In this document: positions 1-22,102 of the stretch, piece after piece | Layout: every line of letters begins with the position of its first letter | How positions within the stretch are numbered: the first letter of the stretch is position 1 | Source of the DNA: a virus | Virus record (IMG/VR): IMGVR_UViG_3300021373_001991 | Location: 1 to 31,927 of that record | Length of the DNA stretch: 31,927 nucleotides | Reading direction: 5' to 3' (one strand) | Made by a program: the position numbers and the translations under genes | Notes under the pieces: model-generated | Database searches by the model: none | What the model was told of the DNA's origin: nothing | The model's input: only the letters and a program-made list of their open reading frames with translations

Positions 1-386
1 TAATCTTCATAAGAATCTATATGAAAAACGTCATACCTAGTTGGCATACTTGCTACTATGTCAACTTCTTTTTTGTTTACAAAAAATCTGTGTTTTATCT
101 CTTTTGCTGATATATGTATGTCCTTTGGTACTAAACATATTCCATCAAAGTATGTATCATTTAAAAATGTGTGTACATATTTTTTATCCCATTCAGCTAC
201 TTCATAATCAAATGCAAAACTATCCTGTACATCTACATCATCCCAAACAACATAAAACATATCACTTAGAGCTTTACGTTGTGCTTGATCAAAACTTGTT
301 GCAAACTTAGCCGTAGGGAATCTATCGCACAGTTTTTTATACTGTGTTTTATTTTCTTTTGCAGACACGAAAATTATATCATACAT
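1..386 (-). CDS. GT-A-like glycosyltransferase family protein, 3' end cut by window edge
   Basis: Reading the minus strand from ATG at 386 gives 128 open codons to the window edge, starting MYDIIFVSAKENKTQYKK. The layout matches the transferase encoded at 7508-8398: an opening DIIF-S strand, a LC-RFP-AK segment (residues 19-27; LCNKLPWAK in the other), then an acidic pair in the place of the DGD motif. Here that stretch is YVVWDDVDV, with D49, D50 and D52. After it comes FAFDYEVAEWD (about residues 56-66), a block I associate with this transferase family in marine phages. The start lies 20 bases after the stop of the preceding gene. There is no Shine-Dalgarno sequence; instead a sigma-70-like promoter ends six bases before the ATG, so translation may be leaderless. 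The plus-strand reading frame over the same bases is a shadow. Activity is unproven because the metal-binding motif differs from the usual DxD. Confidence 0.82.
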   Translation of the reverse strand, partial: MYDIIFVSAKENKTQYKKLCDRFPTAKFATSFDQAQRKALSDMFYVVWDDVDVQDSFAFDYEVAEWDKKYVHTFLNDTYFDGICLVPKDIHISAKEIKHRFFVNKKEVDIVASMPTRYDVFHIDSYED

Positions 387-392
387 CTTGTT

Positions 393-421
393 ATTATACT
401 ACTTTTTTAGGGTTTAGTCAA
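393..421 (-). promoter_or_regulatory. sigma-70-like promoter before the last, truncated gene
   Basis: On the minus strand, TTGACT (421-416) is followed by exactly 17 bases and then TATAAT (398-393). This is five of six matches to the -35 consensus and a perfect -10. The -35 sits inside the last codons of the preceding gene. With a six-base discriminator (AACAAG) the predicted transcript begins at about 386, which is the A of the ATG. AT-rich DNA yields -10-like words by chance, but the matching -35 at ideal spacing makes this convincing. Confidence 0.7.
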
Positions 422-1534
422 GAAATATTCTTCTGTAGATTGAACAATATTTCTAGTTATTTCTTGCTTAAAATCAATGCTGTTATACACTTGTGCGTTC
501 TTTTTTAAGATAGGTTGCCAGCTTTTAAGCAACTTATAACGCTCTGTATGCTCTAAATGCACCCAGTGCTGTAAAGTATCGTGGAACAAATTAAAACGCA
601 CTGTAGGGTCTTGTATGCTGTCGTAGGAGGTGTTTAAGCCTGGTAAACGCAAGTTAATACCTATACTATCAAAGTAATCTAGTATTCCGTGTTGCCCTAA
701 TACTATACAAGGATGTCCAATAGCAATTGACCTAAATGTTTTTTCAGTAATAAACAATCCAGGTTCTTCAAAAAACGTTTCTGTAACAATACTAAGCTGA
801 CTTGCATTATAAATATCTCTATTTGTTACATTACCTAAGCCGCCGACTGTATTATCTACATCTACTCTATGCCCATACCCTGATACTAAATTATCATGTA
901 TTAAATTTTGTTTTTCTAACCAGTCAATGTGCCTACGTCTATGCGGCCTATCAGTCCTATTAAGACTGTTAAATTTTGCTAGGTCACTCCAATTACGTAA
1001 TACCTTGTCAATTACAAGACTGTCTTCCTTATACGCTGTTTTGGCATCCCACTCTATACCTCCCTGTATTTCTAACTTAGGATAAACGTTTGCATTTTTA
1101 CACCATTGTTGATATTCCTCATTTAATCTTAAATTACCACTTACAATTATTACACTGTTATTTGGCATTTTTCTTTGTTCCATATCATGATGTAATGCCT
1201 TAAACGAATTCCAATTTTCTCCAATATATGAATCACCTTCTACAATACTAATAATTGCAATTCTACATTTCCCTTGTTGTACAAGATGTATTACTTCTAT
1301 AGGAATATTTAAAAGTGTGTTAAAAGAATCTTGCGTTCCTACATCACCTGTCCATTGATGCGATAGTTTAGAAGTTTCAATAGGAAAAATACATTCAGTA
1401 CTTGGCTTGCCAAACCCAATTCCTAATTCAGGTGTTTTGTATCTTTGAATAAATTGTTTGTATGGTCGTACTTTTTTTATTTCAGGTACATGATCTAAAT
1501 TTAATCTGTCTGGTCTTATAAACTGGAATTTCAT
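407..1534 (-). CDS. putative GT-B-like glycosyltransferase, TEKT family member 3
   Basis: A 375-residue soluble protein without signal peptide or membrane segment. It shares a three-part signature with the products at 2799-3914 and 4868-6142. An N-terminal Rossmann-like part (about residues 85-145) contains an EG followed by a strand VIIVSGN and a YQQW. The middle has FNSLNRTDRPHRRRH. The C-terminal part has VTETFFEEPGLFITEKTFR and then a GHPCIVLG segment, about residues 245-280. The E-K of such a motif resembles the nucleotide-sugar site of GT10- and GT47-type enzymes, so I infer transfer of a sugar from an NDP donor, but the family assignment is not proven. The start ATG overlaps the preceding stop as TAATG and has a GAGG ribosome site. 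It lies between a methyltransferase and another transferase, in keeping with glycan assembly. Confidence 0.85.
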   Translation of the reverse strand: MKFQFIRPDRLNLDHVPEIKKVRPYKQFIQRYKTPELGIGFGKPSTECIFPIETSKLSHQWTGDVGTQDSFNTLLNIPIEVIHLVQQGKCRIAIISIVEGDSYIGENWNSFKALHHDMEQRKMPNNSVIIVSGNLRLNEEYQQWCKNANVYPKLEIQGGIEWDAKTAYKEDSLVIDKVLRNWSDLAKFNSLNRTDRPHRRRHIDWLEKQNLIHDNLVSGYGHRVDVDNTVGGLGNVTNRDIYNASQLSIVTETFFEEPGLFITEKTFRSIAIGHPCIVLGQHGILDYFDSIGINLRLPGLNTSYDSIQDPTVRFNLFHDTLQHWVHLEHTERYKLLKSWQPILKKNAQVYNSIDFKQEITRNIVQSTEEYFLTKP

Positions 1535-2118
1535 TATATACCTCTTGTAAGTATTACACCATTGTTGTCGCTGTATGCTATTTTATAACCATGTATTACC
1601 GCATAAGGTATTACAGGTCCATTTTTACCAAAGTATACTCCTGAGCTTTTGTCAAATGGTGTGTCATCGCATATTATGATACTTTCCTTGTCCATGTAAG
1701 GCATGCAACATACCATTTGTTCTAAATGTTCACGCTGACAATCAAAGTTTGTCATTTTAACGCCTCTAGTATTATATTCGCTTATAAGTTCTTTTTCTAC
1801 AGGACGTATATGATTCATAGTGCTTATCCAGTCATAATTATCTAGATACAACACACTAATAGATTTATCAAGATAAGTTTTTGCCCAACTAGAGCCTGCT
1901 TCCGCTACAATAAACTTTGTATTTTTAAGGTGTTTAAGAGATTTAGATGCATAATCTGTTACATCAACAGTATAAAAATCTTTGTTTAGTTTTTTTGAAA
2001 TGCTGTCAAACCATGCTGTACTACCTTCACCACGTTCGCTACCAATCTCTAATACAATAGAACGGTTGTCAGGTAATTGTTTTATAAATGGTTCTGCATA
2101 AAGATGAAAGTTAGCCAT
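1534..2118 (-). CDS. class I SAM-dependent methyltransferase-like protein
   Basis: The protein is 194 residues from the start I prefer. It has a Rossmann pattern: motif I LEIGSERGEGST (residues 23-34), an acidic end of strand 2 in FYTVDVTD (D52), then VLYLDNYDW (D93) and a strand with IIICDDTPF near residue 150. This arrangement is typical of small class I methyltransferases that act on sugars or other small molecules. An in-frame ATG at 2169 exists, but it would overlap the upstream gene by 44 bases and lacks a ribosome site. The ATG at 2118 lies seven bases after the upstream stop codon and is preceded by GAGG. In this cluster the likely role is O-methylation of a sugar, which is inference; cephalosporin-hydroxylase-like relatives share the fold and cannot be excluded. 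Confidence 0.82.
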   Translation of the reverse strand: MANFHLYAEPFIKQLPDNRSIVLEIGSERGEGSTAWFDSISKKLNKDFYTVDVTDYASKSLKHLKNTKFIVAEAGSSWAKTYLDKSISVLYLDNYDWISTMNHIRPVEKELISEYNTRGVKMTNFDCQREHLEQMVCCMPYMDKESIIICDDTPFDKSSGVYFGKNGPVIPYAVIHGYKIAYSDNNGVILTRGI

Positions 2119-2125
2119 AGATCCT

Positions 2126-2806
2126 CTACATAAATTGAGATCTTCTTGGTTCCTTTTCCCATGTGCCATTGCTAGTGTAATAAAATAATATTAAATTATC
2201 TCTTGACGTATCATCAGGCGTTTGTAATTGGTTAGGAAATCCATGTACAAGATCTGTATCGTATATCCAAAATGCAAGTCGATTAGGCTTAGGTGTTAAC
2301 CTATGCATACATTTTGTTTTTTTGTTATCCCAGAATTCTAAATCTCCGCCCCAAGACTCGTCCCAGCATTTATTTAAGTAAAGTATTAAATTAACTTTTC
2401 TGTTAAGTTTAATTTGATCGTTCCAATTAAAATCTGTATGTAGATCTAATTTGTAACCGTTGTGTACCTTACATAACCCTCCACCACGTAAATGTGGATC
2501 TGCTACAAGTCCAGTAATACCAATTTGTTCTTGTAACCAGTTTATAGTTTTACTTGAATTAAAAGTGTTTTGTAATGTTTCTATTAGTGGTGCGTTTACA
2601 GGGTTTCTGCATTCTGATCTACTACTAGAATCATTTGCAAATGTACTCCACTGTGCATCAGGAATATCAGTAATCTGTTTAACTACTGCTTCGTATATGT
2701 TCTGAGGCAAAAAATTATCAACAATCCAAATATCTGTAGGATCGCTGCTAACTTTTTTTGGTGTAATATCTAAACTGTTAAAGTGTTGATAAATTTCATT
2801 ATGCAT
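2126..2806 (-). CDS. 2OG-Fe(II) oxygenase family protein
   Basis: A 226-residue protein with the complete facial triad of the 2-oxoglutarate/Fe(II) dioxygenases: HTD at 123-125 (H123, D125), the distal H188 in DLVHGFPN, and R202 fourteen residues later to hold 2-oxoglutarate. Strands such as NLILYLN (139-145) and GGDLEFWD (153-160) complete the double-stranded beta-helix in the usual order for the prolyl-hydroxylase-like subgroup. Such oxygenases are frequent in marine T4-like phages. The start overlaps the preceding transferase by eight bases (ATGCATAA). The reaction is probably hydroxylation or oxidation of a sugar, protein or nucleotide; its neighbours favour a glycan intermediate, but the substrate cannot be read from sequence. 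Confidence 0.92.
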   Translation of the reverse strand: MHNEIYQHFNSLDITPKKVSSDPTDIWIVDNFLPQNIYEAVVKQITDIPDAQWSTFANDSSSRSECRNPVNAPLIETLQNTFNSSKTINWLQEQIGITGLVADPHLRGGGLCKVHNGYKLDLHTDFNWNDQIKLNRKVNLILYLNKCWDESWGGDLEFWDNKKTKCMHRLTPKPNRLAFWIYDTDLVHGFPNQLQTPDDTSRDNLILFYYTSNGTWEKEPRRSQFM

Positions 2807-3914
2807 TTTGTTTCTCTACAAGTTTACGAAAATTGTACTCGGTAATTTCTTTTATACCTTCTAGTACATCTGCATACTCTTGTGGAGGAAGATTGCAAAT
2901 GCGAGTAATTTCGTCTACAATCATATTTATCCGTTTTTTGTTGTCTGTTTCTACATCATAAGATTCGTCTATATACGGATTAAATGTTTTAAAACCTAAT
3001 GCTCTAAAGTCCACAAGCATGCGAGGTGTGCTAAACGCAATAAATGGTTTCTTACATGCTACAGCCTTGTATGTTTTCTCTGTGATACTTGTAGGTGCAA
3101 ATGATCTATCGTACTCACTTTTGTTTGTATAATAGGTTTGATCAAAATGTGTTTCAATAGCAATATGAAAGTCTGCTGATAATATTGCATCATATGTTAC
3201 ATTTGACCATTTGTTTAATACACTGGTATTTGTATCTAATTCATGTGGACATTCTTTAAGCCAACGATATGCTATTTTGCTTGTTGGTACAGATCTTTTT
3301 TCTAAATCTTCAACTATTTGTTTTGCTTTAAAAACTTTTGGAGGATTTTGGTATGGCCATATATTAAAAAAACTGTATTTGAAATGTTCTTGTAGCACAC
3401 CACTGTCAATTAGTTTTACATATAGCATTGCTCGCCAGTCTCTGTAGTTACGGCTAAGACTGCTAAACTTGTGTGTAATATCTGCATCGTGTGATTCTGG
3501 TATAGTTACTTCTTTGAGCAAATAGTTATCAACTACAATATTACAATCTCTACCATGCTTTGCAAGGTACGATAATAAAAATTGTTTATGGTTTTCATCC
3601 ATAACAATAACTTTAATATCGTCAAATCCTAAACTGTATTTTATTAGTGTGTTCTTAAGGTCTTCTGCAAAGTCAATGCTAAATGTTTCGCTATCGTTTT
3701 CATGTACTAAATGTACATCTTTAAAACGTTTGATATGATTCCAATTTGGTTCATTTAGTGCATTTAACAAAGGTATATTTTCCATAAGTGAATCATATGG
3801 ATGATGATAGTAGACTACTTCATTGCTATCTAAGTCTACATTAGTTAAATCTTGTACAACACTAAATTCTAAATCATGTGACCATTTTTTGCCTGTTTTA
3901 CTGTATACGCTCAT
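2799..3914 (-). CDS. putative GT-B-like glycosyltransferase, TEKT family member 2
   Basis: A 371-residue protein and the most divergent of three paralogues in this window. It keeps FSSLSRNYRDWRAMLYVKL (residues about 150-170), where the others have FNSLNR or FLCFQRR, and later IETHFD, then SITEKTYKAVACKKPFIAF and GFKTFN with DESYD. The 14-residue stretch between IETHFD and ITEK is longer than in its relatives. The N-terminal third is Rossmann-like with alternating strands and helices. The start lies within the end of the epimerase gene (17-base overlap) and has an AAGGA site eight bases upstream. I infer a sugar transferase using an NDP-sugar donor; acceptor and donor are unknown. The direct contact with the epimerase gene suggests a GDP-sugar donor, which is a guess from position. 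Confidence 0.82.
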   Translation of the reverse strand: MSVYSKTGKKWSHDLEFSVVQDLTNVDLDSNEVVYYHHPYDSLMENIPLLNALNEPNWNHIKRFKDVHLVHENDSETFSIDFAEDLKNTLIKYSLGFDDIKVIVMDENHKQFLLSYLAKHGRDCNIVVDNYLLKEVTIPESHDADITHKFSSLSRNYRDWRAMLYVKLIDSGVLQEHFKYSFFNIWPYQNPPKVFKAKQIVEDLEKRSVPTSKIAYRWLKECPHELDTNTSVLNKWSNVTYDAILSADFHIAIETHFDQTYYTNKSEYDRSFAPTSITEKTYKAVACKKPFIAFSTPRMLVDFRALGFKTFNPYIDESYDVETDNKKRINMIVDEITRICNLPPQEYADVLEGIKEITEYNFRKLVEKQNA

Positions 3915-4866
3915 CGCATTGTTCCTTTATCCATGCATAGGTATGTTTCAAACCATATTCTAAATCTTCGTCCGGTCTCCATCCAAGTAGTTCTTCAATA
4001 AGATCATTGTGACTTGTTCTGCCCATTACACCAACTGGACCGTCAACGTTTATAATTTCTAATTGATTTTTACCTGCAATTTGTCCTATAAGTTGAGCAA
4101 GGTCATTAATAGCAATCATTCTTTCGCTACCTAAGTTTACAGGTTGGTCAATATTGCTTTCCATTATTTTAAGTAGGCCTTTTATACATTCTTCAATATA
4201 TAAAAAACTTCTTGTTTGTGTTCCAGGACCCCATATTTCTACAACGTTTTGGCAAAGTGCTACTTTCCTACATAGTGCCGCGGGTGCTTTTTCCTTGCCA
4301 TCACACCAACTACCAAGTGGACCAAATACGTTGTGTAGTCTTACAACTTTTGCATCTATATCATAATTTTTTCTATGTGTAAGATATAATCGTTCACTGA
4401 ACAATTTTTCCCAACCATATTCTGTATCTGGTTCTGCAGGATATGCACTACTTTCTTCGCAAAGAGGATTGTTAGGATCTAACTGATTACGTTCAGGATA
4501 TACACATGCACTACTTGTGTAAAGTATTTTTTTAATACCTTTTTTAGTTGCTTCATGTAGTACATTTAAATTTATTAATGCACTGTTATGCATTATATCA
4601 CTGTCATGATCACCAATGCCGATATAACCTGTGCCGCCCATGTCTGCTGCAAGTTGGTATATTTCATCTAACTCTTTGTTTATACAGCCAGCAACAAAGT
4701 CTGGATTACGTAAATCTACTTGAAAAAATTCTTGTGCCTTTGTAGGTTCAAAAGCAGGTTGTTTTATATCTGCACCTATTACATAATGTCCTTGTTCAAC
4801 TAGTTTGTTAACTAGATGATGTCCTATGAAGCCGCCTGCTCCACATACTAGTATTTTCTTTTTCAT
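3898..4866 (-). CDS. GDP-mannose 3,5-epimerase-like NAD-dependent epimerase
   Basis: An extended SDR with an NAD site GAGGFIG (residues 9-15) and an LAADMGG-like signature (72-78). GDP-mannose 3,5-epimerase converts GDP-D-mannose to GDP-L-galactose or GDP-L-gulose. The residues known to matter in the plant enzyme (C145, Y174, K178, K217 in Arabidopsis) appear here as C121 in SSACVYP, Y150 and K154 in YGWEK, and K193 in KEKAPAA, all at a constant offset of 24. Also typical are RLHNVFGP and WGPGTQTRSF. The length of 322 residues is close to the family core. I chose ATG 4866, one base after the preceding stop with GGAA upstream, over the in-frame ATG at 4878, which has no ribosome site. The enzyme would supply the nucleotide sugar for the surrounding transferases. 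Exact product stereochemistry is not determined by sequence. Confidence 0.93.
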   Translation of the reverse strand: MKKKILVCGAGGFIGHHLVNKLVEQGHYVIGADIKQPAFEPTKAQEFFQVDLRNPDFVAGCINKELDEIYQLAADMGGTGYIGIGDHDSDIMHNSALINLNVLHEATKKGIKKILYTSSACVYPERNQLDPNNPLCEESSAYPAEPDTEYGWEKLFSERLYLTHRKNYDIDAKVVRLHNVFGPLGSWCDGKEKAPAALCRKVALCQNVVEIWGPGTQTRSFLYIEECIKGLLKIMESNIDQPVNLGSERMIAINDLAQLIGQIAGKNQLEIINVDGPVGVMGRTSHNDLIEELLGWRPDEDLEYGLKHTYAWIKEQCDERIQ

Positions 4867-4867
4867 T

Positions 4868-6142
4868 TTAGTTTCCATATTTTTCTGTTATTATATCTAA
4901 TTCAGTATCAGGTATTGTTTTTAAAAGATTAAAGTTGTATTCAACTATCTCTGCTACTTCTTTTGTAAAGTTTAATTTTACTAGATCAGACCAACCTGAT
5001 ATTACATGTACTACATCACAAATCCTGTTTATACGTTCTACAGGATCAGCAATATTATCATAATCTTCTGACCACCATTGGTCAAATGTTTTGAATCCCA
5101 TGTCTTTTATGTGTTGTAAACTTCCTTTTGCACCCATCATTATAAATGGCTGTTTATATGCAATAGGCTTATAAGTTTTTTCTGTAATGTGTATTTCGTC
5201 AGTAAAGAAAAAAGTTTCACTGATAATATTTATTAGGCTGTTTTTAAAATAATGCTCTATTGACTCTTCAGTTGACTCCATAGGATAACTGTTAAAGTTT
5301 GGATTATCTAGTACTAAAGGTAGTTTGTTTTTACTAGTTGCAATATCTTCTTGGGCTATACCTAAATTAGGATAACGTTTTATAAGGTAATCAACATTAC
5401 TTTCAAATGACCTGCCCGACTCTGGTTGTTTACTATCCATACTCATATAAAATTTATCAAGTAAGTTTCTTTTAAACATTTTAATAAAAAAAGAAAGTCT
5501 ATGATCGCTGTATCTACGTTGAAAACACAAGAAGTCTTTTTCTCTTGGTCCCACTTTATAAGGTTCTTCTTTGAGAAGTGTTTGTTCTACGTTTGTTCTA
5601 TGTACTTTAAATGTAGGAAAATACTCTACATTTATTTTAGGGCCTATTGTACCATCTGACCATTTGTTATACAAATCTTGTCCATTAGCACAATTAGTAA
5701 AGTAAACAACTTTGTCTAAAGGTATTTCATAATGATTAAAAAATCGTGTCATTACTTCCCAATGTTTGGGAGTTGCCCATCCTTCAAAAGGAATAGTAAC
5801 AAGTACATATCCATTACCATGTTGTATTTGGTCCCTAACTGTAGAAGTAGGAGGATTATTAACAAATGGTCCATCAGTAATACTAAAAAGTTTTGTCCAA
5901 TCTCTATAATAATACGATGTAAAATTTAATTCGTAAAAATACTTTTTATCTTGCGGAATCTCAAATGCAGAAATAATTTCTTTGTTTTTAAATGACTGAA
6001 ACACTACTGGTGCTTGTACATTATCATCTATGTGTCCTTCATTCATAGCATGATTTATATCTTCTATAGTAGGCACTCTATTGTTAGTTATTGGCCATTT
6101 AGGTCCACACCATTTGTATGCAAAACTTAAAGTTTTAGACAT
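4868..6142 (-). CDS. putative GT-B-like glycosyltransferase, TEKT family member 1
   Basis: At 424 residues this is the longest of the three paralogues and shows the family signature most clearly. It has an N-terminal Rossmann-like part with VVYFTNCANGQDLYNKW (about 165-181), a central FLCFQRRYSDHRLSFF (about 225-240), and ISETFFFTDEIHITEKTYK (about 325-343) followed by PFIMMGAKG and GFKTFDQWWSEDYD. The paired E and K in ITEKTYK resemble the donor site of GT10-like enzymes. No signal peptide or membrane helix is visible, so it should act in the infected host's cytoplasm. Its ATG overlaps the radical SAM gene by eight bases (ATGTCTAA) and has AAGGA eight bases upstream. It directly precedes the epimerase gene. 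Function is inferred, not demonstrated. Confidence 0.84.
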   Translation of the reverse strand: MSKTLSFAYKWCGPKWPITNNRVPTIEDINHAMNEGHIDDNVQAPVVFQSFKNKEIISAFEIPQDKKYFYELNFTSYYYRDWTKLFSITDGPFVNNPPTSTVRDQIQHGNGYVLVTIPFEGWATPKHWEVMTRFFNHYEIPLDKVVYFTNCANGQDLYNKWSDGTIGPKINVEYFPTFKVHRTNVEQTLLKEEPYKVGPREKDFLCFQRRYSDHRLSFFIKMFKRNLLDKFYMSMDSKQPESGRSFESNVDYLIKRYPNLGIAQEDIATSKNKLPLVLDNPNFNSYPMESTEESIEHYFKNSLINIISETFFFTDEIHITEKTYKPIAYKQPFIMMGAKGSLQHIKDMGFKTFDQWWSEDYDNIADPVERINRICDVVHVISGWSDLVKLNFTKEVAEIVEYNFNLLKTIPDTELDIITEKYGN

Positions 6143-7511
6143 TACCGCAATCCTTATAAAATTTTTCTAACTCAGGAAATGTTTCTACTAAATTAGTTTT
6201 TCTTCTTCGGTCATATTCTGAAAACCACGAATAGAAGTTACGCATACCGTTTATAATTTTATCTTGGTCATATTCTGTATTTTTCATGTAGTCTATTACA
6301 CGCCTAAATCTTTCGTACTCTAAAGAACTAAATTTTGTTCGGTCTTTGTCATCAGTATTATCTTGTATAAATTTTAGATGTTTTTCCATGTAAGGTAAAA
6401 ACTCGTCTTTGGGTAAAATATTCATATCAAATTGTAGTGGCTCTTTTAAATACGGTGTATCAAATCTTACACGTTGCCACTGAGTTTCATTGTCATCTGT
6501 ATTATATTTTTTACGCCATTCTAATATTTTTTCTAACAAACTATCAAAACTTGTAACTACAAATAAGTTAAATGTAACCATAAATGTTACAGGCCAACCC
6601 GTTGCTGTAAGATAGTAATCTAAGTTACGTTCCCATAGTTTAATGTCTAGTCCTGTACGTGTATATTCTGCACGTTTACCCCAAGTGTCGATACTTGTGT
6701 ATAATTTAAAACTGTTGATGCAACCTTTTTCTTTTAAATCTTTTACACGTTCTACTAACCTATATACCATTGCAGGTTTAACACCCATGTTACTGTTAAG
6801 TTCAATATTAAGATGTGGCTTAGGATTCTGTTCTAATTCGTCAAACAGGCGCCATGTGCTTTTATGCATCAACGGTTCGCCACCTGTTACACGCAAAATG
6901 TTTAGTGTCTTGCTTACTTCAGGCCACCATTTCCACCATGCGTCTACATAAGGGTTAGTATCTTCTTCATATAATTCAAACCAATCAATGTCATTACGAT
7001 GTTCTGTACTGTTACTATATGGACCGTTTTGTTTTATTTCGTTGTAGTATCTACTACTAAATTTAGGATGACAATAGCCGCATTTAAAGTTACATTCATT
7101 ACTAAAGTTAACTTCAATATATTCAGGGTTAATATTGTAATCCCAAGGATTGCTTGTAATTTCTTCTATTCTTTGTGGTGTATATATACTTGATGTTTTT
7201 ATGTGCCTATCACTTACATAGTCTTTGCCCATACATTCTATGTTCCAGCAATATTGACATCCACTCGGTTTCTGTCCGTTAAGCATAGCAAGTCTTTCTT
7301 GCTTTTTTTGTGGAGTGTTATGTAGTTGACTAGGATTTTCTTCTAGTCCTTCTAATGGAATCTTATGGGGAGCAGGATGATAGCAACTATGTGTTTCACC
7401 AGTTTGCAAATATATTGTTACATGGTGCCATTTAGCCAAACAAAAAGTAGGCGATATGTCTCGCTCTACTTTTGGCATGACTTCTTTGATTCTAATTAGC
7501 TCAGTATTCAT
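6135..7511 (-). CDS. radical SAM protein with an N-terminal twitch-like cysteine cluster
   Basis: A 458-residue enzyme. The radical SAM [4Fe-4S] motif is C140, C144 and C147 in CNFKCGYC, followed by the SAM-binding TGGEP at 209-213. Before the core is a second cysteine set, C24, C43, C85 and C88 (with C93 close by), the last pair in GCQYCW. This spacing suggests an auxiliary iron-sulfur cluster of the twitch type, placed N-terminally rather than after the core as in SPASM proteins. Family members are found in marine T4-like phages. Substrate is unknown; a sugar or peptide modification is plausible given neighbouring transferases. The start forms an ATGA overlap with the upstream gene. Such enzymes use host reductants and S-adenosylmethionine. 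Confidence 0.92.
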   Translation of the reverse strand: MNTELIRIKEVMPKVERDISPTFCLAKWHHVTIYLQTGETHSCYHPAPHKIPLEGLEENPSQLHNTPQKKQERLAMLNGQKPSGCQYCWNIECMGKDYVSDRHIKTSSIYTPQRIEEITSNPWDYNINPEYIEVNFSNECNFKCGYCHPKFSSRYYNEIKQNGPYSNSTEHRNDIDWFELYEEDTNPYVDAWWKWWPEVSKTLNILRVTGGEPLMHKSTWRLFDELEQNPKPHLNIELNSNMGVKPAMVYRLVERVKDLKEKGCINSFKLYTSIDTWGKRAEYTRTGLDIKLWERNLDYYLTATGWPVTFMVTFNLFVVTSFDSLLEKILEWRKKYNTDDNETQWQRVRFDTPYLKEPLQFDMNILPKDEFLPYMEKHLKFIQDNTDDKDRTKFSSLEYERFRRVIDYMKNTEYDQDKIINGMRNFYSWFSEYDRRRKTNLVETFPELEKFYKDCGNV

Positions 7512-8398
7512 CTTTTCTTAATTATTCTTGGTGTGTTATGATACACACTTTTGAAAAATCTACTTCCTAGTGCGTCTATGTCAGCAATTTCTAACTTTAG
7601 TTCCGATCGTATAAGGTTACCGTATCTAAATAACTCAGAGCTAACATCTAAATTTGCAACTTTTTCTTCTTTCCAGTAATTAGTTAGATATTTAAAATCA
7701 CGTACATTTGTATAATCCCAATCTGTACACATAGTCATATAGCAACCCATCCTTGCACCAAGCATACTCCAGTTACCATTTTCTACATCAGCACCAATAC
7801 TACACCAAATACGCAATCTGTCTAAATTTTGCCACCAAATGTTTTTTACATCAACATGTTTTGCACCTTCATTTAGGCTCATTTTAACACCTTCACGAAA
7901 ACCTGCTCTCCATGCTTGAAACGGAGTAGCGTTTGTGTAACTTGTACTGTAGTTGTCATTAAATTGGTAATATTTTTCATCAAAACAGAATTCTACTAGG
8001 CCTGCTGTATCATCAGCATCACTGTTTTCATGTGTTTTCATGTTATGAACAAACTTACGTGTCCATAACTTTAGTCCACCATTACCATACATTAGTCCAT
8101 TTACATAAACATTGCCGCACCAACTAAAAACATGGTCGGCAGTGACTCCTAATTTTTCAATATCAATTTCTTGTTGCAGAAATTCAGTGTCAATTATGTT
8201 ATCGCCGTCAACAGTAACAAAATATTCTGTTTCACTTAGGTCTGCACATGCCTTATGTGCAGCATCTGACCCATCTACACCGTGTACACGCTTTGCCCAA
8301 GGCAACTTGTTACATAAATCGGCATAGTTTTTTTCAGCATTGGGTTCATCGTAGGATAAAAAGATAATGTCCTGATCAATGATTTTAATTTTATTCAT
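7508..8398 (-). CDS. GT-A-like glycosyltransferase family protein with DGD motif
   Basis: A 296-residue protein of a transferase type I associate with marine T4-like phages. It starts with DIIFLSYDEPNAEKNYADLC (residues 10-29), then RVHGVDG (37-43), AHKACAD (47-53) and FVTVDGDN, in which D64-G-D66 is the probable metal and nucleotide-sugar site. A later GLMYGNGGLKLWTRK block (about 106-120) is also characteristic. The gene at 1-386 is a relative. The start overlaps the upstream gene by eight bases (ATGAATAA) and is preceded by GAGG six bases away. It is cytoplasmic by absence of signal or membrane segments. Donor and acceptor sugars cannot be predicted. Confidence 0.87.
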   Translation of the reverse strand: MNKIKIIDQDIIFLSYDEPNAEKNYADLCNKLPWAKRVHGVDGSDAAHKACADLSETEYFVTVDGDNIIDTEFLQQEIDIEKLGVTADHVFSWCGNVYVNGLMYGNGGLKLWTRKFVHNMKTHENSDADDTAGLVEFCFDEKYYQFNDNYSTSYTNATPFQAWRAGFREGVKMSLNEGAKHVDVKNIWWQNLDRLRIWCSIGADVENGNWSMLGARMGCYMTMCTDWDYTNVRDFKYLTNYWKEEKVANLDVSSELFRYGNLIRSELKLEIADIDALGSRFFKSVYHNTPRIIKKR

Positions 8399-8966
8399 TA
8401 ACTACCTCGCACGAATACTTTTGGAACTTCCTATTAGTATATACACTAAATTTGTCAAAATCATACTGACTCTGGCTGTCAAATGACTGGGGATTATCCA
8501 ACAACTTTTCTACAGTTGTGGTAAAATACTCATGCAAAATATTGGGGTTATTCTTTTGGGTAATGCTAAACTTTAACAGTTGATCGATACGCTCTTTTTT
8601 AGAGGATAATTCGTTAATTGCTTTGTCTGATAAAGACACATTCCAAACATTTTTAGATTTGTTGTAAGACACAATTACCTGTGCATTATCTTGAGGTGAG
8701 ATTTTATATACGTTGTCGTTTACATCCGACTCTATCTTTTTAAACTTATCAACTATTACATATGCTGATGTTTTTACATCATATATAACTTTATGTTTTG
8801 TAATATCTTTAGTTCCCTTTAAAAAAGGACGAACATCTTCAATATCTACTACAAAAAAGTTTTCTATATCTTGTTCTACATTTGAAATAGACTTAATATT
8901 ACCTGTTTGTTTATCAAAATATACTTTGTATATTATCTCAAATGTAGGTGTTTCTAAAACAATCAT
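8391..8966 (-). CDS. conserved phage protein of unknown function
   Basis: I recognise the N-terminal pattern (EIIYKVYFDKQTGNIKSISN, then FLKGTKDITKHKV) as recurring in hypothetical proteins of marine T4-like phages, but no function is known to me. The 191 residues are lysine-, asparagine- and aspartate-rich, mostly beta in the first half and helical after about residue 115, without catalytic motifs, membrane segments or cysteine pairs. It overlaps the GT8-like gene upstream by four bases (ATGA) and the next transferase by eight, so it is translated in the same unit. A structural or scaffold role for the neighbouring enzymes is possible, but nothing in the sequence shows it. Confidence 0.82.
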   Translation of the reverse strand: MIVLETPTFEIIYKVYFDKQTGNIKSISNVEQDIENFFVVDIEDVRPFLKGTKDITKHKVIYDVKTSAYVIVDKFKKIESDVNDNVYKISPQDNAQVIVSYNKSKNVWNVSLSDKAINELSSKKERIDQLLKFSITQKNNPNILHEYFTTTVEKLLDNPQSFDSQSQYDFDKFSVYTNRKFQKYSCEVVNE

Positions 8967-9799
8967 AAGTCTATCCTTTTTTCTAACACTTGAATGATAT
9001 CATTAGTTAAAAAATCATCTTCTGTGTAATGAAATATCCCGCTTTGTTTATATTGTCCAATATACAACTCACCCTCGTCAGTAAAATAAGTACCAACTTT
9101 AGTCTGCCAACTCTCTCTAAGCTCTTCCCAACCCTGTATGTTGGCTTTCATATGAGTAAAACTAGGCACAGTTACCTTTTCGTTAGTGACTTTTGATTTG
9201 CATTCAAGTATATCTACAGTCATTGCCGCTGTAAGATCCATGCTTGCAAAGTTTTGTATTGGTTTTTCGCCACCTAGTTTATAAAATTCTTTCCAATTGT
9301 TTGTAATAACATCTAACCATGTATAAAATTTTAGTGCAAAATCACTTTTCTTAAAGTAATGTAGTCCCATATATGTGTTAGGCAAATTATGCTTTACAAA
9401 ATTTTTCCTATAGAAGGTATCTGTAATTTTGTCGCCTCTGTAATCATAAACAGTAGACGTTAAAAACACATCATGCTGTTGTAGATATTCATACCAAGAT
9501 GTAATATCTTCAAGTACAAGCATATCTGTGTCTAACACTATTGCGTCTTCGTATGGTGAAACAAAATATGTCTTCCATCTATTGTGTATTTTCCAATCAT
9601 ATTTGTTTGCTAGATCGCCCCACGGTATTTCAATAATGTTATCAAACAAATTTTTATACTTTACAGGCACTTCGTCATCAGTAAGGATACTAATTTTGCT
9701 GTGTGGTGTAGTTGCATGTATGCTCATAGCAAGAGCACACGCTTGTTTTACATAATCTACTTCTAAAGTGTTTTGAGCAACAAGAATAAAATTAGGCAC
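8963..9799 (-). CDS. GT8-like glycosyltransferase, second of an adjacent pair
   Basis: A 278-residue protein with a GT-A style beginning (FILVAQNTLEVDYVKQA, residues 4-20), ISILTDDE (36-43) and a DxD motif in AIVLDTDMLV (D90-T-D92), where a metal ion and nucleotide sugar would bind. The same three blocks occur in the gene just upstream, so the two are probably an old tandem duplication. It begins with GTG at 9799, preceded by a strong GGAGG nine bases away and overlapping the upstream stop by eight bases (GTGCCTAA). GT8 relatives include glycogenin and LPS galactosyltransferases. Family is moderately certain; substrate is unknown. Confidence 0.86.
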   Translation of the reverse strand: MPNFILVAQNTLEVDYVKQACALAMSIHATTPHSKISILTDDEVPVKYKNLFDNIIEIPWGDLANKYDWKIHNRWKTYFVSPYEDAIVLDTDMLVLEDITSWYEYLQQHDVFLTSTVYDYRGDKITDTFYRKNFVKHNLPNTYMGLHYFKKSDFALKFYTWLDVITNNWKEFYKLGGEKPIQNFASMDLTAAMTVDILECKSKVTNEKVTVPSFTHMKANIQGWEELRESWQTKVGTYFTDEGELYIGQYKQSGIFHYTEDDFLTNDIIQVLEKRIDL

Positions 9800-10622
9800 T
9801 TAGATTATCCTCCAATGTATACTTGTTCATTACATGTACACTGTTGCCTTGAAACTTACAAGGGCTTAAATTGTCTAGTAAGCCTGTACATTGTAAGAGA
9901 AAGATAAACTTATCTCCGTCTATGGAATGTAATATATCTCTGTCTGCAGTATAAAATAACTTGCCGGGCATTCTTTTTGCAAAGTCTCCTTTTTTAAATC
10001 CATTCATTATATGAATTGCAATACTGAATGCAAAATCGTTACGATATGTTGTTGACTGTATATTGTAAACACTTCTATAATGTTGATAGTATTCTTGTAT
10101 ATGCTGTATTAGTTCAAAGAAACATTTGTTTAATTTTGTTTTTCTAAAAAATACACACGTTGCCCAATAAAAGTCTACACTTGTTTCGCTAATATGTTTA
10201 AACTCTTTTGTTTCTCTGTGACTACAAATATCTATAGCATCTTTGTAAAGTAAAAAATCATATTTACTATCAAAACAGTTTTTAAATACATCATCTGCTA
10301 TAACATAATCACTATCTAACATGAGTGTTTCGTCATATGGGCTAAGATCATATGCTAGGCAACGATTGTCATTTTTAAATTCTAAAACACTGTGATTTTT
10401 TGCACCATTATAGTATTGTTTTTTTGTTGATGACTGAGATATATTATTGATAATGATTTTATCAAACCAATCTTTATATCTGTCACCTATGCTTTGTTCA
10501 TCAGTTATAATACTAACTGGTAAGTTAAGATATTCTTTTGCTCTGCCGGCAAGAAATGCCGCTTGTTTTACATAATCAATTTCAGCATTATTGTGTGCAA
10601 AAACAAGAATACCTTTAGTCAT
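9792..10622 (-). CDS. GT8-like glycosyltransferase, first of an adjacent pair
   Basis: The 276-residue product shares with its neighbour the opening ILVFAHNNAEIDYVKQA, a VSIITDE strand and a DxD motif in LMLDSDYVIADD near residue 100. Between them it carries a longer lysine-rich insertion. A TTG at 10637 could extend the protein by five residues, but the ATG at 10622 has a good GAAGG site eight bases upstream and gives the same eight-base overlap (ATGACTAA) seen at several junctions of this cluster, so I prefer it. A sugar-transfer role is inferred from the motif order. The protein has no membrane segment. Confidence 0.84.
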   Translation of the reverse strand: MTKGILVFAHNNAEIDYVKQAAFLAGRAKEYLNLPVSIITDEQSIGDRYKDWFDKIIINNISQSSTKKQYYNGAKNHSVLEFKNDNRCLAYDLSPYDETLMLDSDYVIADDVFKNCFDSKYDFLLYKDAIDICSHRETKEFKHISETSVDFYWATCVFFRKTKLNKCFFELIQHIQEYYQHYRSVYNIQSTTYRNDFAFSIAIHIMNGFKKGDFAKRMPGKLFYTADRDILHSIDGDKFIFLLQCTGLLDNLSPCKFQGNSVHVMNKYTLEDNLSA

Positions 10623-10962
10623 TAAAAATACCTTCAACAGAACGTTGTTTTTTTAATTTATTGTATTCATTAAAGTATTTGTTAGATGCTGTTGCATATG
10701 TGTTTACTAGATTTTTTGTAAACACCGGTAAGTCTTCTATTAAAGACGGAAGTCCGTTATCATCTATAAGGACAATTTGATCTTGTTCGAGATATGTTAA
10801 ACTTTGACAAAAACTAATTAGTTCTTTGCTAGATGTAAATTGACATCCATTTTCATAATGAATTAGATCAGCATCATATTGCTGTTGTAGTATCTTTTTT
10901 TGTTGGTTTATTGTGTCAAGCAGATTGCTTGCTTCAAGTGCTTTTGCTAGTTTTTTGTCCAT
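10615..10962 (-). CDS. conserved small phage protein, first gene of the glycan cluster
   Basis: A 115-residue, largely helical protein. The N-terminal helix (about residues 1-35) is coiled-coil-like with repeated leucine and glutamine; FTSSKELISF and VLIDDNGLPSLIEDLP follow, then a basic KKQRSVEG end. I recall similar proteins as conserved hypotheticals in marine T4-like phages; no activity is assigned. It is the first gene after the sigma-70 promoter at 10989-11017, and its ATG has GGAG seven bases upstream, with a predicted leader of only about 20 bases. It is therefore likely to be made early, with the cluster. It could be a small regulator or structural protein, but the sequence does not decide. 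Confidence 0.85.
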   Translation of the reverse strand: MDKKLAKALEASNLLDTINQQKKILQQQYDADLIHYENGCQFTSSKELISFCQSLTYLEQDQIVLIDDNGLPSLIEDLPVFTKNLVNTYATASNKYFNEYNKLKKQRSVEGIFND

Positions 10963-10988
10963 ACAACATCTCCAAAGGTATACTAGTA

Positions 10989-11017
10989 ATTATACACTCT
11001 TAGGAGTCAAATGTCAA
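10989..11017 (-). promoter_or_regulatory. consensus sigma-70 promoter driving the glycan cluster
   Basis: On the minus strand TTGACA (11017-11012) is followed by a 17-base spacer and TATAAT (10994-10989): both hexamers and the spacing are perfect. The -35 overlaps the TGA stop (11016-11014) of the last structural gene. The expected start point near 10982 leaves about 20 bases before the ATG at 10962, including a GGAG ribosome site. Within the spacer is a small ACTC-CTAA-GAGT inverted repeat of uncertain meaning. T4-like early genes use host sigma-70, so this suggests the cluster is expressed early, separately from the late structural genes upstream. Confidence 0.9.
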
Positions 11018-11484
11018 GAAAAAGACCAAGTCCAAATTGAATGGGTTTCAGTTTCTTCTAACGTTGGAGCATAACTGTCAGCAAGTGGATGTTCAGTACA
11101 AGTACGTCTTATCCAATTATCGTCTCTAGCTGTTTTAGAGGTAATAAATTTTTTACTAGTAAATCCTCTTTCAATTAATGCATTATTTAATGTATCAAAA
11201 TATGTAGATTCATACAAGTAATCTCTAGAGCCATTATAAGCAATGCTATGTATTTCACCTATAGTAAACTGATCACCTTCTGCTATACCTATAACAAGTG
11301 ATACTGGTTTATTATCTATTGTAAGTAAAAAATATGTAAACACATCAGTGTATAATGTGCTCAAAGCATTTTTTAGATCACAATGTGGATTATGTTTACT
11401 AAATTCTAAAGCTAACTGGTTGTGTAATTCGTCAATAAATTCTTCTGACAACTCGTATACTTCATTTATAAAATACGTAGCCAT
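11014..11484 (-). CDS. unknown protein coupled to the glycine-rich adhesin; possible assembly partner
   Basis: I do not recognise this family. The 156 residues begin MATYFINEVYELSEEFIDEL, alternate strands and helices, and end in a tryptophan-containing THSIWTWSFS. There is no signal peptide or membrane segment. The ATG at 11484 shares one base with the stop of the adhesin gene (TAATG), pointing to translational coupling; an in-frame ATG 17 codons further upstream would overlap the adhesin by 52 bases and has no advantage. Small genes directly after a phage adhesin often encode its chaperone or a tip protein, as gene 38 does after gene 37 in T-even phages. That role is a positional guess; an acetyltransferase-like fold is another possibility. 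Confidence 0.82.
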   Translation of the reverse strand: MATYFINEVYELSEEFIDELHNQLALEFSKHNPHCDLKNALSTLYTDVFTYFLLTIDNKPVSLVIGIAEGDQFTIGEIHSIAYNGSRDYLYESTYFDTLNNALIERGFTSKKFITSKTARDDNWIRRTCTEHPLADSYAPTLEETETHSIWTWSFS

Positions 11485-14400
11485 TATTCTAAAGTCCTTA
11501 GTGTAAAATTCCAGTTGCCCTGATTCAAAACCCAAATAAATCCATTACTGTCATCCGAAGTCACTAATGGTGGTAGCCCGTCTAAAGTACTAAGTTGAAA
11601 CGTAGTGTTTGTTCCGTCGAAACTTCTTGTTGTTCGCTGTGTTTTTACGAAAGTGATATTTCTATTACTGCCTTGTGAAACATCAACACTGTGTAATCTT
11701 TCAAACGGTACATTGCCACTTAATTTAAATAAAACATAAAATGTTATACCCTGCATATATGATGTACCAGCAGGAGCACTGGATATTCTTGTTATCACTG
11801 CACTTATCAATGAATGACCGCCGGCAGTAGTACTAAAATTGTTTGTATTTGTGCCGCTGGTTCCTTGCCATCCTGCCGTATAAACTGTTGGAGAACTATT
11901 TATTATACCTACAGCACCGTTTGCTGTATAAATGTTTATTGATTTTTCAGATTCTGTAGAACTATATCTTGCTATAGCAACTACTCCAGGATGACCTGCG
12001 CCGCCTCTAGACAGTTGTTGACGCTGAGACATGCCGCCGCCACCTGCGCCAACTCCTAAACCGTTACAGTAGGTTCCGTAATTAGGTACTTGACAAGCCG
12101 CAGTGCCGCCTTGCACTTCTAGATATTGTAATAGTATCTTGTTGGTGCTGATGTTTGTTCTAGCGGCTTCTGCTACTCTGTTACCTACGTTTTCAGTTGC
12201 TAAAGTACCACTAGCAGCAAATGTATTACCATCAGGTAAGTTTGCTTGAATACCATCTCCTGTGCTTATAGTTCCACCAGTACTTGCTTGCAAAATATTA
12301 AAAGTACCTGAAGTAGCTAGACTGGCAGCACCTGTAAAGTTTGAATCTCCGCCAGTAGCATCTCCACCTACTGAAGCAAGTCCAATCAAGCCGTTTTGGC
12401 CGGCATTGGCATCTATTATTCCCCCAGCTCTTTTTATTGAATAGTAAAAAGCATTTTCTGGTTCTGCAGACCCTGGGTTCGTATCGAAGAAAGATTGCTG
12501 AGGGCCTCGTTCATATGTAACCCCGTTATAAACAAAGGAAGAACTAAAATCATTTATTGCCGTCCTAATTACGTTGCCTTCCCAGACCCACACAGACGGT
12601 ACGTTAATGCCTTGCATTACAAAACTTTCCTTACCAAATGTAAATGAATACTTAGAAATAGTAGAGCCATATGAAAAAGTGCTTGAGCCGCCGGGTCGTC
12701 CTAGATTAAAATCATTAGCACCGCTTTCTTGCCTTGAGCCATCTCCGCCTCTACCAACAATTATATTTGCTGTATTTGGAATATTTCCGTCTAGTAATGT
12801 CTTAAATGCAACGCCACCTGCTGCGCCACCGCCTGCAGGACCGCCTCTACTACTATCTACCGAAATACCTGTTCCGCCACCGCCACCACCAACTACAGCA
12901 ATATCAATTCTATTGTCGTTAGCCTGTTTAGACCATGTATAGCCAGTGTCAAAACCGCCATAAAATCTTGTTTCAGTAGCACTGTTTAACGTTGGAAGAT
13001 TAGATGCATTAGAGGATGTAATTCTTGTTTTGGTTTCAGTCGTTCCGTACGTTTGAAATGAGTCAGCACCGGTTGATCCTTGATCAAGGTCTGCAAGAGC
13101 ATAATATTCTATTGCATATAAATTTTCCGTTCTTGGAGGCACAGTAGTATCTACAATAGATGTAGTCATACTATCTACTATTGTTCCACCTACTCCACCT
13201 GTTCTAAATGATACTGTGATAGTTTCGTTATCTCCAACTACAGCATCATTTGCCCCTGTTAGTTGGAACGACCCATTGCCGCCTGTAACACTGAAACTTC
13301 CATTGTTTGTGGTCATTACACCTGTCGGACTTACTGAGTAATAATATGTGCCATCATTGTCGTTGGTTGTTACGTTATAGGTGCCTGTGCTTCCTTCATT
13401 AATACTTGATGGTCCTGTTATATCGTATGTGTTAGCCACAGGTGGTGGTGATGGTGAAGTACTAGTATCATTTATTTGTATACTTTGTTGCAATCCAAAT
13501 GATGGTACACTACATATAAGCGTTTCTGCTCCTTCTGAAGTTTCGTCATTCTTTGCAGTTATAGTTACACTTCCTATACCATTATTCATAGTAAATACAC
13601 CGCCCATGCCTTGACTATTGTCAAGATCACCAACACTTATACCTACGCCACTCAATGTATAATCTATTGTAGTACCGTTTGCCACAGGATTTACACTTAA
13701 TGTAAAGGTTACATTATCGCCTTCGTTGATAGACCCTGTTGCTGGAGTTCTTGTTAAGTTAGCAGAAGCATTATTTTGTATGCCGTCATCTAGTGCTGTA
13801 ATTGTTGTAATCGATGGTGCTGGTATTCCTAAAACTGTATCATGATAAATTTTTACATTGCTTTGAATGTCATTGTCAACATTTTCATCTATACCATCAG
13901 GACTACTACTAAAATCGTTATCTTGAAATTCTATTCTAAATCTTAATGTGCTTGGTGTTGTTGCATTACCAGCAGCAACTTCCCATGCTTCAATCCTATA
14001 TTGAATGTCAGCATATATGCCTGAGCCATTTTTAATATATATTACCGCTCTATTACTTGAACTTGTTAGATTCCAATCTGCATAATAATTACCAATCGCT
14101 GAACCAGATCCTGGACTTGAACCATCTGCTGTTGTTGCATTTTTACTAAATGTAATTGTACCCATGTTGGCTAATACAGTGTTCCAACTGTCTTCTTTTG
14201 AACTTGCTGTTACAGCACCTATAAGATCAGCATTAAATCTTAGTTCGCCGCCAGTGTTAAAGAAGTACCTTCTTTGATCAGAATTAAGCCAAGTAATTTC
14301 TACTTCGTTGGTAATTTTAGAACCAGGACTAGCAAAGTCGCCGCCGCCCCATGGGTTAGTACGTGTGCTGGTTACTGTTGTTATTGTAAAGTTATCAGCA

Positions 14401-14951
14401 TCATGTTGATTTATATCTGCTACAATTTCATCTGCCGCTGCTTCAAAGTCTAAATATCCTTCTGCTTGATCGTCTTCTGCGTTAGCACTTGTAGGTGAAA
14501 GTTTTGCAATACCTGTACCAGTTCCTGGCCCTGTTGCTGTAAATTTTATTCCTGCTTCGTTAGCAGAAGCACCTATTAATGTAAAATCAGAATCACCTGT
14601 ATCAACAATCATATATTCTGTTGACGCAACAAGTGAGAAAATAGCTAAAGGAGTTTCGTCTCCAACGTCTGCAGCACTTGCACCAACATTTTCATCTGCA
14701 CTTGGTGCAGCAAGGCCATCGGCATTGGTCCATGTTACTGGATTTGTTTGGTGTAATCTTGCTTTGATAAGGTCGTTATATAACTGTTGCATATCTGTTG
14801 CAGCAATTACATCGCCTGCGCTTTTTTGTGAACTTTGTAAAGTTTGGCCGTAACCGTTTTGTGCTCCGTCTCCAGCACCTAAAACGTCATCTATCTTACC
14901 TTGGATTGTGTTATAATTTGCCGCGGTAACATTTGTTCCAACTACAGCCAT
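11484..14951 (-). CDS. large glycine-rich tail adhesin with Calx-beta-like domains
   Basis: A 1155-residue modular virion protein. Residues 1 to about 95 and 160-385 repeat the full layout of the 337-residue protein encoded just upstream (GDGAQNGYG, YNDLIKARLHQ, DQAEGYLDFEAAADE). Residues about 98-155 are an extra module ending in a threonine-glycine-rich FTATGPGTGTG. Two Calx-beta-like segments follow, about 395-485 (SINEGDNVTFTLS) and 505-600 (SSINEGSTGTYNV). From about 685 to 1000 it is glycine-rich, with VVGGGGGGTG, PAGGGAAGG and GVGAGGGGMS, like phage receptor-binding tips. The end carries LDGLPPLVT, a motif also ending the 692-residue fibre. The role is probably host recognition at the tail. 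It lies last in the late block and may be the target of the glycan genes next door. Confidence 0.88.
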   Translation of the reverse strand: MAVVGTNVTAANYNTIQGKIDDVLGAGDGAQNGYGQTLQSSQKSAGDVIAATDMQQLYNDLIKARLHQTNPVTWTNADGLAAPSADENVGASAADVGDETPLAIFSLVASTEYMIVDTGDSDFTLIGASANEAGIKFTATGPGTGTGIAKLSPTSANAEDDQAEGYLDFEAAADEIVADINQHDADNFTITTVTSTRTNPWGGGDFASPGSKITNEVEITWLNSDQRRYFFNTGGELRFNADLIGAVTASSKEDSWNTVLANMGTITFSKNATTADGSSPGSGSAIGNYYADWNLTSSSNRAVIYIKNGSGIYADIQYRIEAWEVAAGNATTPSTLRFRIEFQDNDFSSSPDGIDENVDNDIQSNVKIYHDTVLGIPAPSITTITALDDGIQNNASANLTRTPATGSINEGDNVTFTLSVNPVANGTTIDYTLSGVGISVGDLDNSQGMGGVFTMNNGIGSVTITAKNDETSEGAETLICSVPSFGLQQSIQINDTSTSPSPPPVANTYDITGPSSINEGSTGTYNVTTNDNDGTYYYSVSPTGVMTTNNGSFSVTGGNGSFQLTGANDAVVGDNETITVSFRTGGVGGTIVDSMTTSIVDTTVPPRTENLYAIEYYALADLDQGSTGADSFQTYGTTETKTRITSSNASNLPTLNSATETRFYGGFDTGYTWSKQANDNRIDIAVVGGGGGGTGISVDSSRGGPAGGGAAGGVAFKTLLDGNIPNTANIIVGRGGDGSRQESGANDFNLGRPGGSSTFSYGSTISKYSFTFGKESFVMQGINVPSVWVWEGNVIRTAINDFSSSFVYNGVTYERGPQQSFFDTNPGSAEPENAFYYSIKRAGGIIDANAGQNGLIGLASVGGDATGGDSNFTGAASLATSGTFNILQASTGGTISTGDGIQANLPDGNTFAASGTLATENVGNRVAEAARTNISTNKILLQYLEVQGGTAACQVPNYGTYCNGLGVGAGGGGMSQRQQLSRGGAGHPGVVAIARYSSTESEKSINIYTANGAVGIINSSPTVYTAGWQGTSGTNTNNFSTTAGGHSLISAVITRISSAPAGTSYMQGITFYVLFKLSGNVPFERLHSVDVSQGSNRNITFVKTQRTTRSFDGTNTTFQLSTLDGLPPLVTSDDSNGFIWVLNQGNWNFTLRTLE

Positions 14952-14972: not shown

Positions 14973-14980
14973 TACTTATA
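14973..14980 (-). promoter_or_regulatory. possible T4-type late promoter before the adhesin gene
   Basis: The minus strand reads TATAAGTA in the 24-base gap before the adhesin, one mismatch from the T4 late -10 element TATAAATA; its first bases form the stop codon of the preceding gene. A transcript would start near 14968, ahead of an AGGAAACAGG ribosome region. AT-rich DNA makes such near matches common, so this is tentative. Confidence 0.35.
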
Positions 14981-17534: not shown

Positions 17535-17542
17535 TATTTATA
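17535..17542 (-). promoter_or_regulatory. T4-type late promoter (TATAAATA)
   Basis: The minus strand reads TATAAATA, the exact T4 late -10 element recognised by the phage sigma factor gp55, immediately after the TAG stop of the 608-residue fibre gene. The start of the next gene is 36 bases further on, leaving room for a start point near 17530 and an AGGA ribosome site. Its position in one of the widest gaps of the late block supports function. Confidence 0.7.
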
Positions 17543-22094: not shown

Positions 22095-22102
22095 TATTTA
22101 TT
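22095..22102 (-). promoter_or_regulatory. possible T4-like late promoter after the giant gene
   Basis: The minus strand reads AATAAATA across the stop codon of the giant protein gene, matching the NATAAATA form described for late promoters of marine T4-like phages. A start near 22089 would leave a leader of about 13 bases that just contains the AGGAA ribosome site. The short leader and AT-rich context keep confidence low. Confidence 0.4.

Follow-up and report, generated by a model that had tools for sequence, protein, structure and literature searches.

The 31.9-kb virus record IMGVR_UViG_3300021373_001991, from an uncultured aquatic phage related to T4 (the window, by which we mean the whole stretch of DNA analysed; 35% G+C, genes on the minus strand), carries, behind its fibre genes, a run of genes for the synthesis, modification and transfer of sugars. 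This run consists of two units: a conserved core, which follows the fibre genes in the order M-L-K-J-I-H, and then a variable sugar module, of which the version with a GDP-mannose 3,5-epimerase (GME) is one of several. Our preferred reading, held tentatively and with slightly less than even confidence, is that the locus serves to produce a glycan that differs between phage types and to attach it, most probably to the tail fibres of the phage itself. In the direction of the genes, the window encodes T (a giant structural protein), the fibre-like S, R, Q, P and O, protein N, then M-L-K-J-I-H-G-F-E-D-C-B and the start of A. The cassette open reading frames (ORFs) lie between 10962 and 407, on the minus strand like every feature of the window located below, and are tightly packed, most overlapping by a few bases. 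An earlier note on this DNA had named these genes and their functions; they were confirmed as ORFs with three corrections, namely that A is truncated, that C is only a probable methyltransferase and that the run probably continues past the window. Its proposal that sugar synthesis, modification and transfer are combined here is supported by family, profile and fold assignments. Sequence comparison gives the locus a defined architecture, made up of the constant core, the exchangeable sugar modules and a transferase allele matched to fibre type, and points to a named donor pathway, that of GDP-L-galactose.

The division into two units emerges from gene order. A search of viral contigs with H, the most conserved core gene, returned 554 loci, and gene order was examined in the best 80 of them. 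In these 80, the order fibres-M-L-K-(J)-I-H was nearly always kept where the contig was long enough, and a search with F and G yielded about 34 contigs (some of them near-duplicates) in which the core is followed by all or most of G-F-E-D-C-B in that order. The genes thus stay together across relatives, as the earlier note's single run would have it. More distant GMEs (at most 58% identity) sit elsewhere, without the cassette partners. What follows H depends on the group: the GME module; TEKT genes on the reverse strand, accompanied by genes for DegT and nucleotide-sugar dehydrogenases; another radical S-adenosylmethionine (SAM) gene; or a GDP-mannose-dehydratase-like gene together with a 2-oxoglutarate (2OG)-type gene. 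The nucleotide-sugar genes of these alternative modules encode a DegT aminotransferase, UDPG/GDP-mannose dehydrogenases and GDP-mannose-dehydratase-like proteins. Since the radical SAM enzyme, the GT8 pair and the GT-A protein of the core co-occur with many downstream modules, none of them is tied to the GME sugar in particular. Between near relatives, B-F is swapped as one block, and G independently of it. One such exchange of the whole B-F block, with the relative L121, appears to have been recent: synonymous divergence (dS) between L121 and the window is 0.01-0.12 in B-F and 0.5-1.4 in G-K. Purifying selection acts on all the cassette genes tested, with a ratio of nonsynonymous to synonymous divergence (dN/dS) mostly of 0.03-0.2. 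Within one alternative sugar module, an ORF at L154:12840-13808 looks amidinotransferase-like by eye and gave no Pfam match.

The module of the window is defined by F (3898-4878), which by family assignment is a true GDP-mannose 3,5-epimerase. Among extended short-chain dehydrogenase/reductase enzymes it lies nearest to GME, matching the Arabidopsis enzyme (PDB 2c59) by profile with an E-value of 4.6e-87, against 8e-27 for the next family. In the alignment it retains the GME active-site motifs SSAC, YGxEK and EKAPAA, which hold the catalytic Cys, the Tyr/Lys pair and the Lys motif. F therefore keeps the fold family and active-site motifs of plant GME (PDB 2c54 and 2c59), but in a phage context and with a predicted activity. 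It is 55-58% identical to the GMEs of three metagenome-assembled genomes of unrelated kinds and so gives no clue to the host; no relative of H was found in GTDB contigs. A PF00483 nucleotidyltransferase was not found in nine relatives, mostly fragments, so the GDP-mannose donor is presumably derived from the host, and phage-made GDP-mannose, which we also considered, is unsupported for the same reason. D (2126-2806) is a 2OG-Fe(II) oxygenase by family: it matches PF13640 at 54.2 bits (cut-off 27; E 3e-14) and also PF13661, and HxD...H...R is visible in its sequence. C (1534-2169), a putative class I methyltransferase, carries a conserved EIGS.R.EGST motif; its score against Methyltransf_24 is 16.2 bits, below the cut-off of 26.3, and it gave no PDB profile match, leaving methyltransferase as the probable assignment. 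The core enzyme H (6135-7511) is an N-terminal-twitch radical SAM enzyme, with 322 bits against NF033640 (cut-off 170), coverage of profile positions 1-398 of 398 and a CxxxCxxC signature in the form CNFKCGYC.

Transferases occur in both units. In the core, K (8963-9799) and L (9792-10637) are GT8-like glycosyltransferases with DTD and DSD motifs, respectively; K matches glycogenin (GT8) by profile with an E-value of 7e-5 over residues 9-103, its DxD present, and L is GT8-like through its homology to K (hhalign 99.4%). I (7508-8398) is a putative glycosyltransferase with a DGD motif, for which a GT-A fold is supported by a structural model with a predicted local distance difference test score (pLDDT) of 82; its best PDB fold match, 2p6w, is a glycosyltransferase of PBCV-1 whose entry title gives it a part in glycosylating the major capsid. 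In the module, the TEKT proteins G (4868-6142), E (2799-3914) and B (407-1534) gave no significant family match in Pfam, NCBIfam or PHROGs. An AlphaFold model of G built from the TEKT alignment (pLDDT 89, predicted template modelling score 0.88) matched mostly GT-B enzymes in the PDB, with E-values down to 8e-5 and chlorovirus NY2A 3oy2 as the best, and from this model we assign G a GT-B fold with confidence. E and B, putative GT-B glycosyltransferases, belong to the same family by hhalign (99.8% to G in each case). These three paralogues, together with I, add glycosyltransferase groups that the three profile collections missed here. Reading the TEKT proteins as GT10 fucosyltransferases, on the strength of a TEK motif, was rejected for want of support beyond the general GT-B fold: G has no Pfam match or PDB profile match, and the fucosyltransferase 2nzw ranks only 32nd among its fold matches (E 0.03). 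A TEKT-GME gene fusion in L017 was likewise set aside as weak proof of coupling, as L018 has a stop at the same place and the two differ by a single stop codon; an in-frame I-like/radical SAM ORF in L035 was not counted as coupling evidence either. J (8391-8966) and the small protein M (10615-10962), the first cassette gene, are conserved proteins without an assigned function and are included on synteny. No cassette protein contains a clear transmembrane segment (highest 19-residue mean 1.61), and family profile searches recognised no flippase, polymerase or lipid-carrier transferase among them, which speaks for an acceptor in the cytosol, for example a protein of the fibres.

A connection between the module and the fibres is suggested by the two alleles of G, which are about 54% identical to each other. 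In a backbone tree from I, H, F, K and E, the five lineages form a ladder of L041, L128, L126, L122 and then the window group, with support of 0.995-1.0. One G allele is common to the window group and L128 (86-96% identity) and the other to L122 and L126 (86%). The fibre type with a long O and N is found in the window group and L128, and N is absent in L122 and L126; the genes between G and the fibres mostly follow the backbone. The G allele and the type of fibre tip change together in conflict with the backbone tree; this co-variation is suggestive rather than conclusive, and it links G to the fibre or its receptor without telling which of the two is modified. O itself (11484-14951) is a long, type-variable fibre-tip-like protein with 22% Ser+Thr, and N (11014-11535) occurs only together with the long type of O. 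The short fibre protein P (14976-15989) has an N-terminal part in common with O, and O homologues align to it at about 40%. With phages exchanging whatever module follows H, and with G alleles paired to the type of fibre tip, the locus resembles in its behaviour a serotype locus coupled to receptor-binding genes. Whether it is a phage "serotype" locus in the full sense, with a constant radical-SAM/glycosyltransferase core, exchangeable nucleotide-sugar modules, a transferase matched to the fibre tip and switchable adhesin glycan types, seems to us possible but doubtful; if true, it would be comparable to bacterial O-antigen loci.

Expression signals in the locus point in more than one direction. 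A perfect sigma-70-type promoter, TTGACA-N17-TATAAT (10989-11017), stands 26 bp before M and shares a few bases with the 3' end of N; about 0.03 such perfect sites are expected per window by chance. Its hexamers and 17-bp spacing recur upstream of M, at 11-12 of 12 positions, in relatives with 40-96% M identity, which include the L129-L132, L171/L172/L192, L210-L212, L041 and L047 groups. In G001, a 152-kb relative, perfect sites precede the genes for a NifU-like protein, a GTP cyclohydrolase (folE) and a gp55-like late sigma factor, among others, and the cassette's site is the only perfect one in the main minus-strand block, fibre locus included. The host-type promoter claimed in the earlier note is thereby upheld, as a 12/12 match whose hexamers are conserved in diverged relatives and which is of the kind preceding non-structural genes in G001. 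Its further claim of early expression holds in part: the promoter is deeply conserved in the window's group, but in other groups the position before M instead carries TATAAATA, the T4 late promoter motif (PMC2984593), as in L033/L038, or CTAAATA, as in L036/L039, with other TAAATA motifs in further groups. "Early" is therefore not general, and on motif evidence the timing of the cassette probably varies across the family. Upstream of M in L176-L191, TAAATA-type and TATAAT motifs overlap, like the overlapping early/late promoters proposed for cyanophage middle genes. TATAAATA also precedes the fibre/structural gene Q (16000-17499; PHROGs tail fiber, 9e-16), both in the window, at 17535-17542, and in G001. 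A second sigma-70-type site, TTGACT-N17-TATAAT (421-393; 11/12 match), lies before A and overlaps the end of B, with identical hexamers in all near relatives of A. The notion of a single pathway under one promoter is not supported in that form; against it stand the two units, the exchangeable GME module and this second site. The NifU-like Fe-S assembly gene of G001 (43614-44090), with its perfect promoter, could serve the radical SAM enzymes that the phage itself encodes. A candidate gp45 clamp at G001:60921 was not confirmed, its PHROGs match being of unknown function.

If the glycan is made for the fibres, F would convert host GDP-mannose to GDP-L-galactose, an activity predicted from its family and motifs, and hydroxylation and methylation of the sugar or the glycan may fall to D and C. 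G, E and B would transfer the sugar, as the modelled fold of G and the homology of E and B suggest, with specificities that we can only propose. The core proteins L, K, I and H, kept whatever module follows, might build or prime a constant inner part of the glycan on a protein of the fibre locus. Donor use, acceptor, order of the steps and the role of H are all conjectural in this scheme. Fibre glycosylation is supported by the conserved gene order, the swapping of sugar modules, the co-variation of G with fibre type and the lack of recognised membrane features in the cassette. T4-late-like motifs before the core in some groups also support it, as do the best fold matches of G and I, both chlorovirus glycosyltransferases (3oy2 and 2p6w). 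Several points weigh against it. The promoter in the window is itself of host type, as are those of the G001 non-structural genes, and fibre modification would need no early expression; the sigma-70-type promoter favours early action on the host. Both the acceptor site and a virion glycan on the fibres are predictions. The co-segregation of G with fibre type depends on some two switches of allele in a set of five lineages, and would be expected just as much if G masks the receptor used by the fibre. Finally, the TM-scores of the G and I fold matches are only about 0.3-0.4, so these assignments hold at the level of fold or superfamily and not of orthology.

Host-surface masking draws on some of the same observations and is the most credible competitor, which we nevertheless judge rather unlikely. 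Enzymes made early would alter the host receptor glycan, such as the O-chain of lipopolysaccharide (LPS) or a precursor of the capsule, and so keep out superinfecting phages of the same fibre type. Its case is the perfect, conserved sigma-70-type promoter, a kind that in G001 precedes the genes for the late sigma factor, FolE and the NifU-like protein; the G-fibre co-segregation is compatible with it too, and masking is what published authors favoured for the glycosyltransferases of an analogous pelagimyophage cluster (PMC7029224). However, no membrane protein, lipid-carrier transferase, flippase or polymerase was recognised in the cassette, late-like motifs precede the core in several groups, and the number of enzymes is large for a simple mask. 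In gtrABC serotype conversion, a type-specific change of surface glycan that brings superinfection exclusion, a membrane flippase and a membrane glycosyltransferase are needed; neither was found in the cassette.

A two-step or mixed use is another reading: donor sugars would be prepared early and used on late fibres, as the earlier note had already raised, or different enzymes would serve different targets. The core and the sugar module are indeed separable in evolution, and the overlap of TAAATA and TATAAT motifs before M in L176-L191 would fit, but there is no direct evidence of two targets and we consider such mixed use improbable. Peptides can be substrates of twitch radical SAM enzymes and of 2OG oxygenases, and further radical SAM genes lie downstream in relatives; a locus led by these enzymes, modifying peptide or protein side chains with sugars in a secondary role, is still very unlikely, since nucleotide-sugar enzymes and glycosyltransferase folds predominate and no precursor peptide gene was recognised. 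DNA hypermodification, in which phage bases would be decorated by the oxygenase and the glycosyltransferases, is known from phage glycosyltransferases elsewhere (PMC12619734), but it is the least plausible explanation here: D matches PF13640 and PF13661 and not TET/JBP, and the locus is tied to fibre genes rather than replication genes.

Glycosyltransferases of aquatic T4-like phages usually receive only brief mention, with host LPS as their guessed target; the architecture described here and the predicted GDP-L-galactose donor pathway make virion versus host glycosylation testable. The closest published analogue is the pelagimyophage host recognition cluster, a hypervariable island of the structural region with tail fibres, GT8 enzymes, nucleotide-sugar genes and radical SAM cassettes, whose glycosyltransferases were interpreted as modifying the O-chain against coinfection (PMC7029224). 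Both are variable, fibre-linked islands with glycosyltransferase and radical SAM genes in T4-like phages, the late sigma factor being present in the relative G001. The pelagimyophage cluster is, however, described as non-syntenic and no epimerase is mentioned for it (PMC7029224), whereas here the fixed core M-L-K-J-I-H precedes exchangeable modules. Identity as a pelagimyophage or cyanophage is unsupported by the two phage genes tested, whose best relatives among isolates are in the jumbo phages Phosso, Atu_ph07 and PA5oct. At the thresholds used, none of G, H, I, K, E and B was found in any isolate, except for weak partial H matches in two Vibrio phages. In its proposed function the cassette resembles the autonomous capsid glycosylation of chloroviruses (PMC4691112), which likewise joins virus-encoded nucleotide-sugar enzymes to GT-A and GT-B transferases, and the best PDB fold matches are chlorovirus enzymes. 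Chloroviruses differ in being eukaryotic viruses with a capsid target, and their likeness to the cassette is confined to the fold level. Virion glycosylation in mycobacteriophages is not known to involve a fibre-linked cassette with sugar synthesis. Capsid and tail tube proteins of mycobacteriophages carry glycans (Freeman et al. 2023, as cited in PMC12619734), a parallel to what we propose for the fibres.

At the end of the run, A (3-386) is no more than the N-terminal start of a putative GT-A-like protein with several domains, cut short because its ORF runs off the window; its relatives at L120:17129-18808 (559 aa) and L012:15768-17453 (561 aa) put the full length at about 560 aa. Downstream of A, relatives carry another radical SAM gene and a nucleotide-sugar-dehydrogenase-like ORF, both named by eye, and it is for this reason that the run probably extends beyond the window. 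In the corresponding downstream genes of other groups, UDPG_MGDP_dh and Radical_SAM were confirmed by Pfam. Beyond the sugar module, more radical SAM genes are visible at L120:17129-21051, L012:17446-21065 and L187:16805-20326, along with nucleotide-sugar-dehydrogenase-like ORFs and one that is 2OG-like, and one relative locus has up to four CxxxCxxC ORFs after H. Towards the other end of the window, an ORF of at least 3268 aa (22098-31925), open at the window end, matches PHROG 10938, a virion structural protein, with an E-value of 6e-108.

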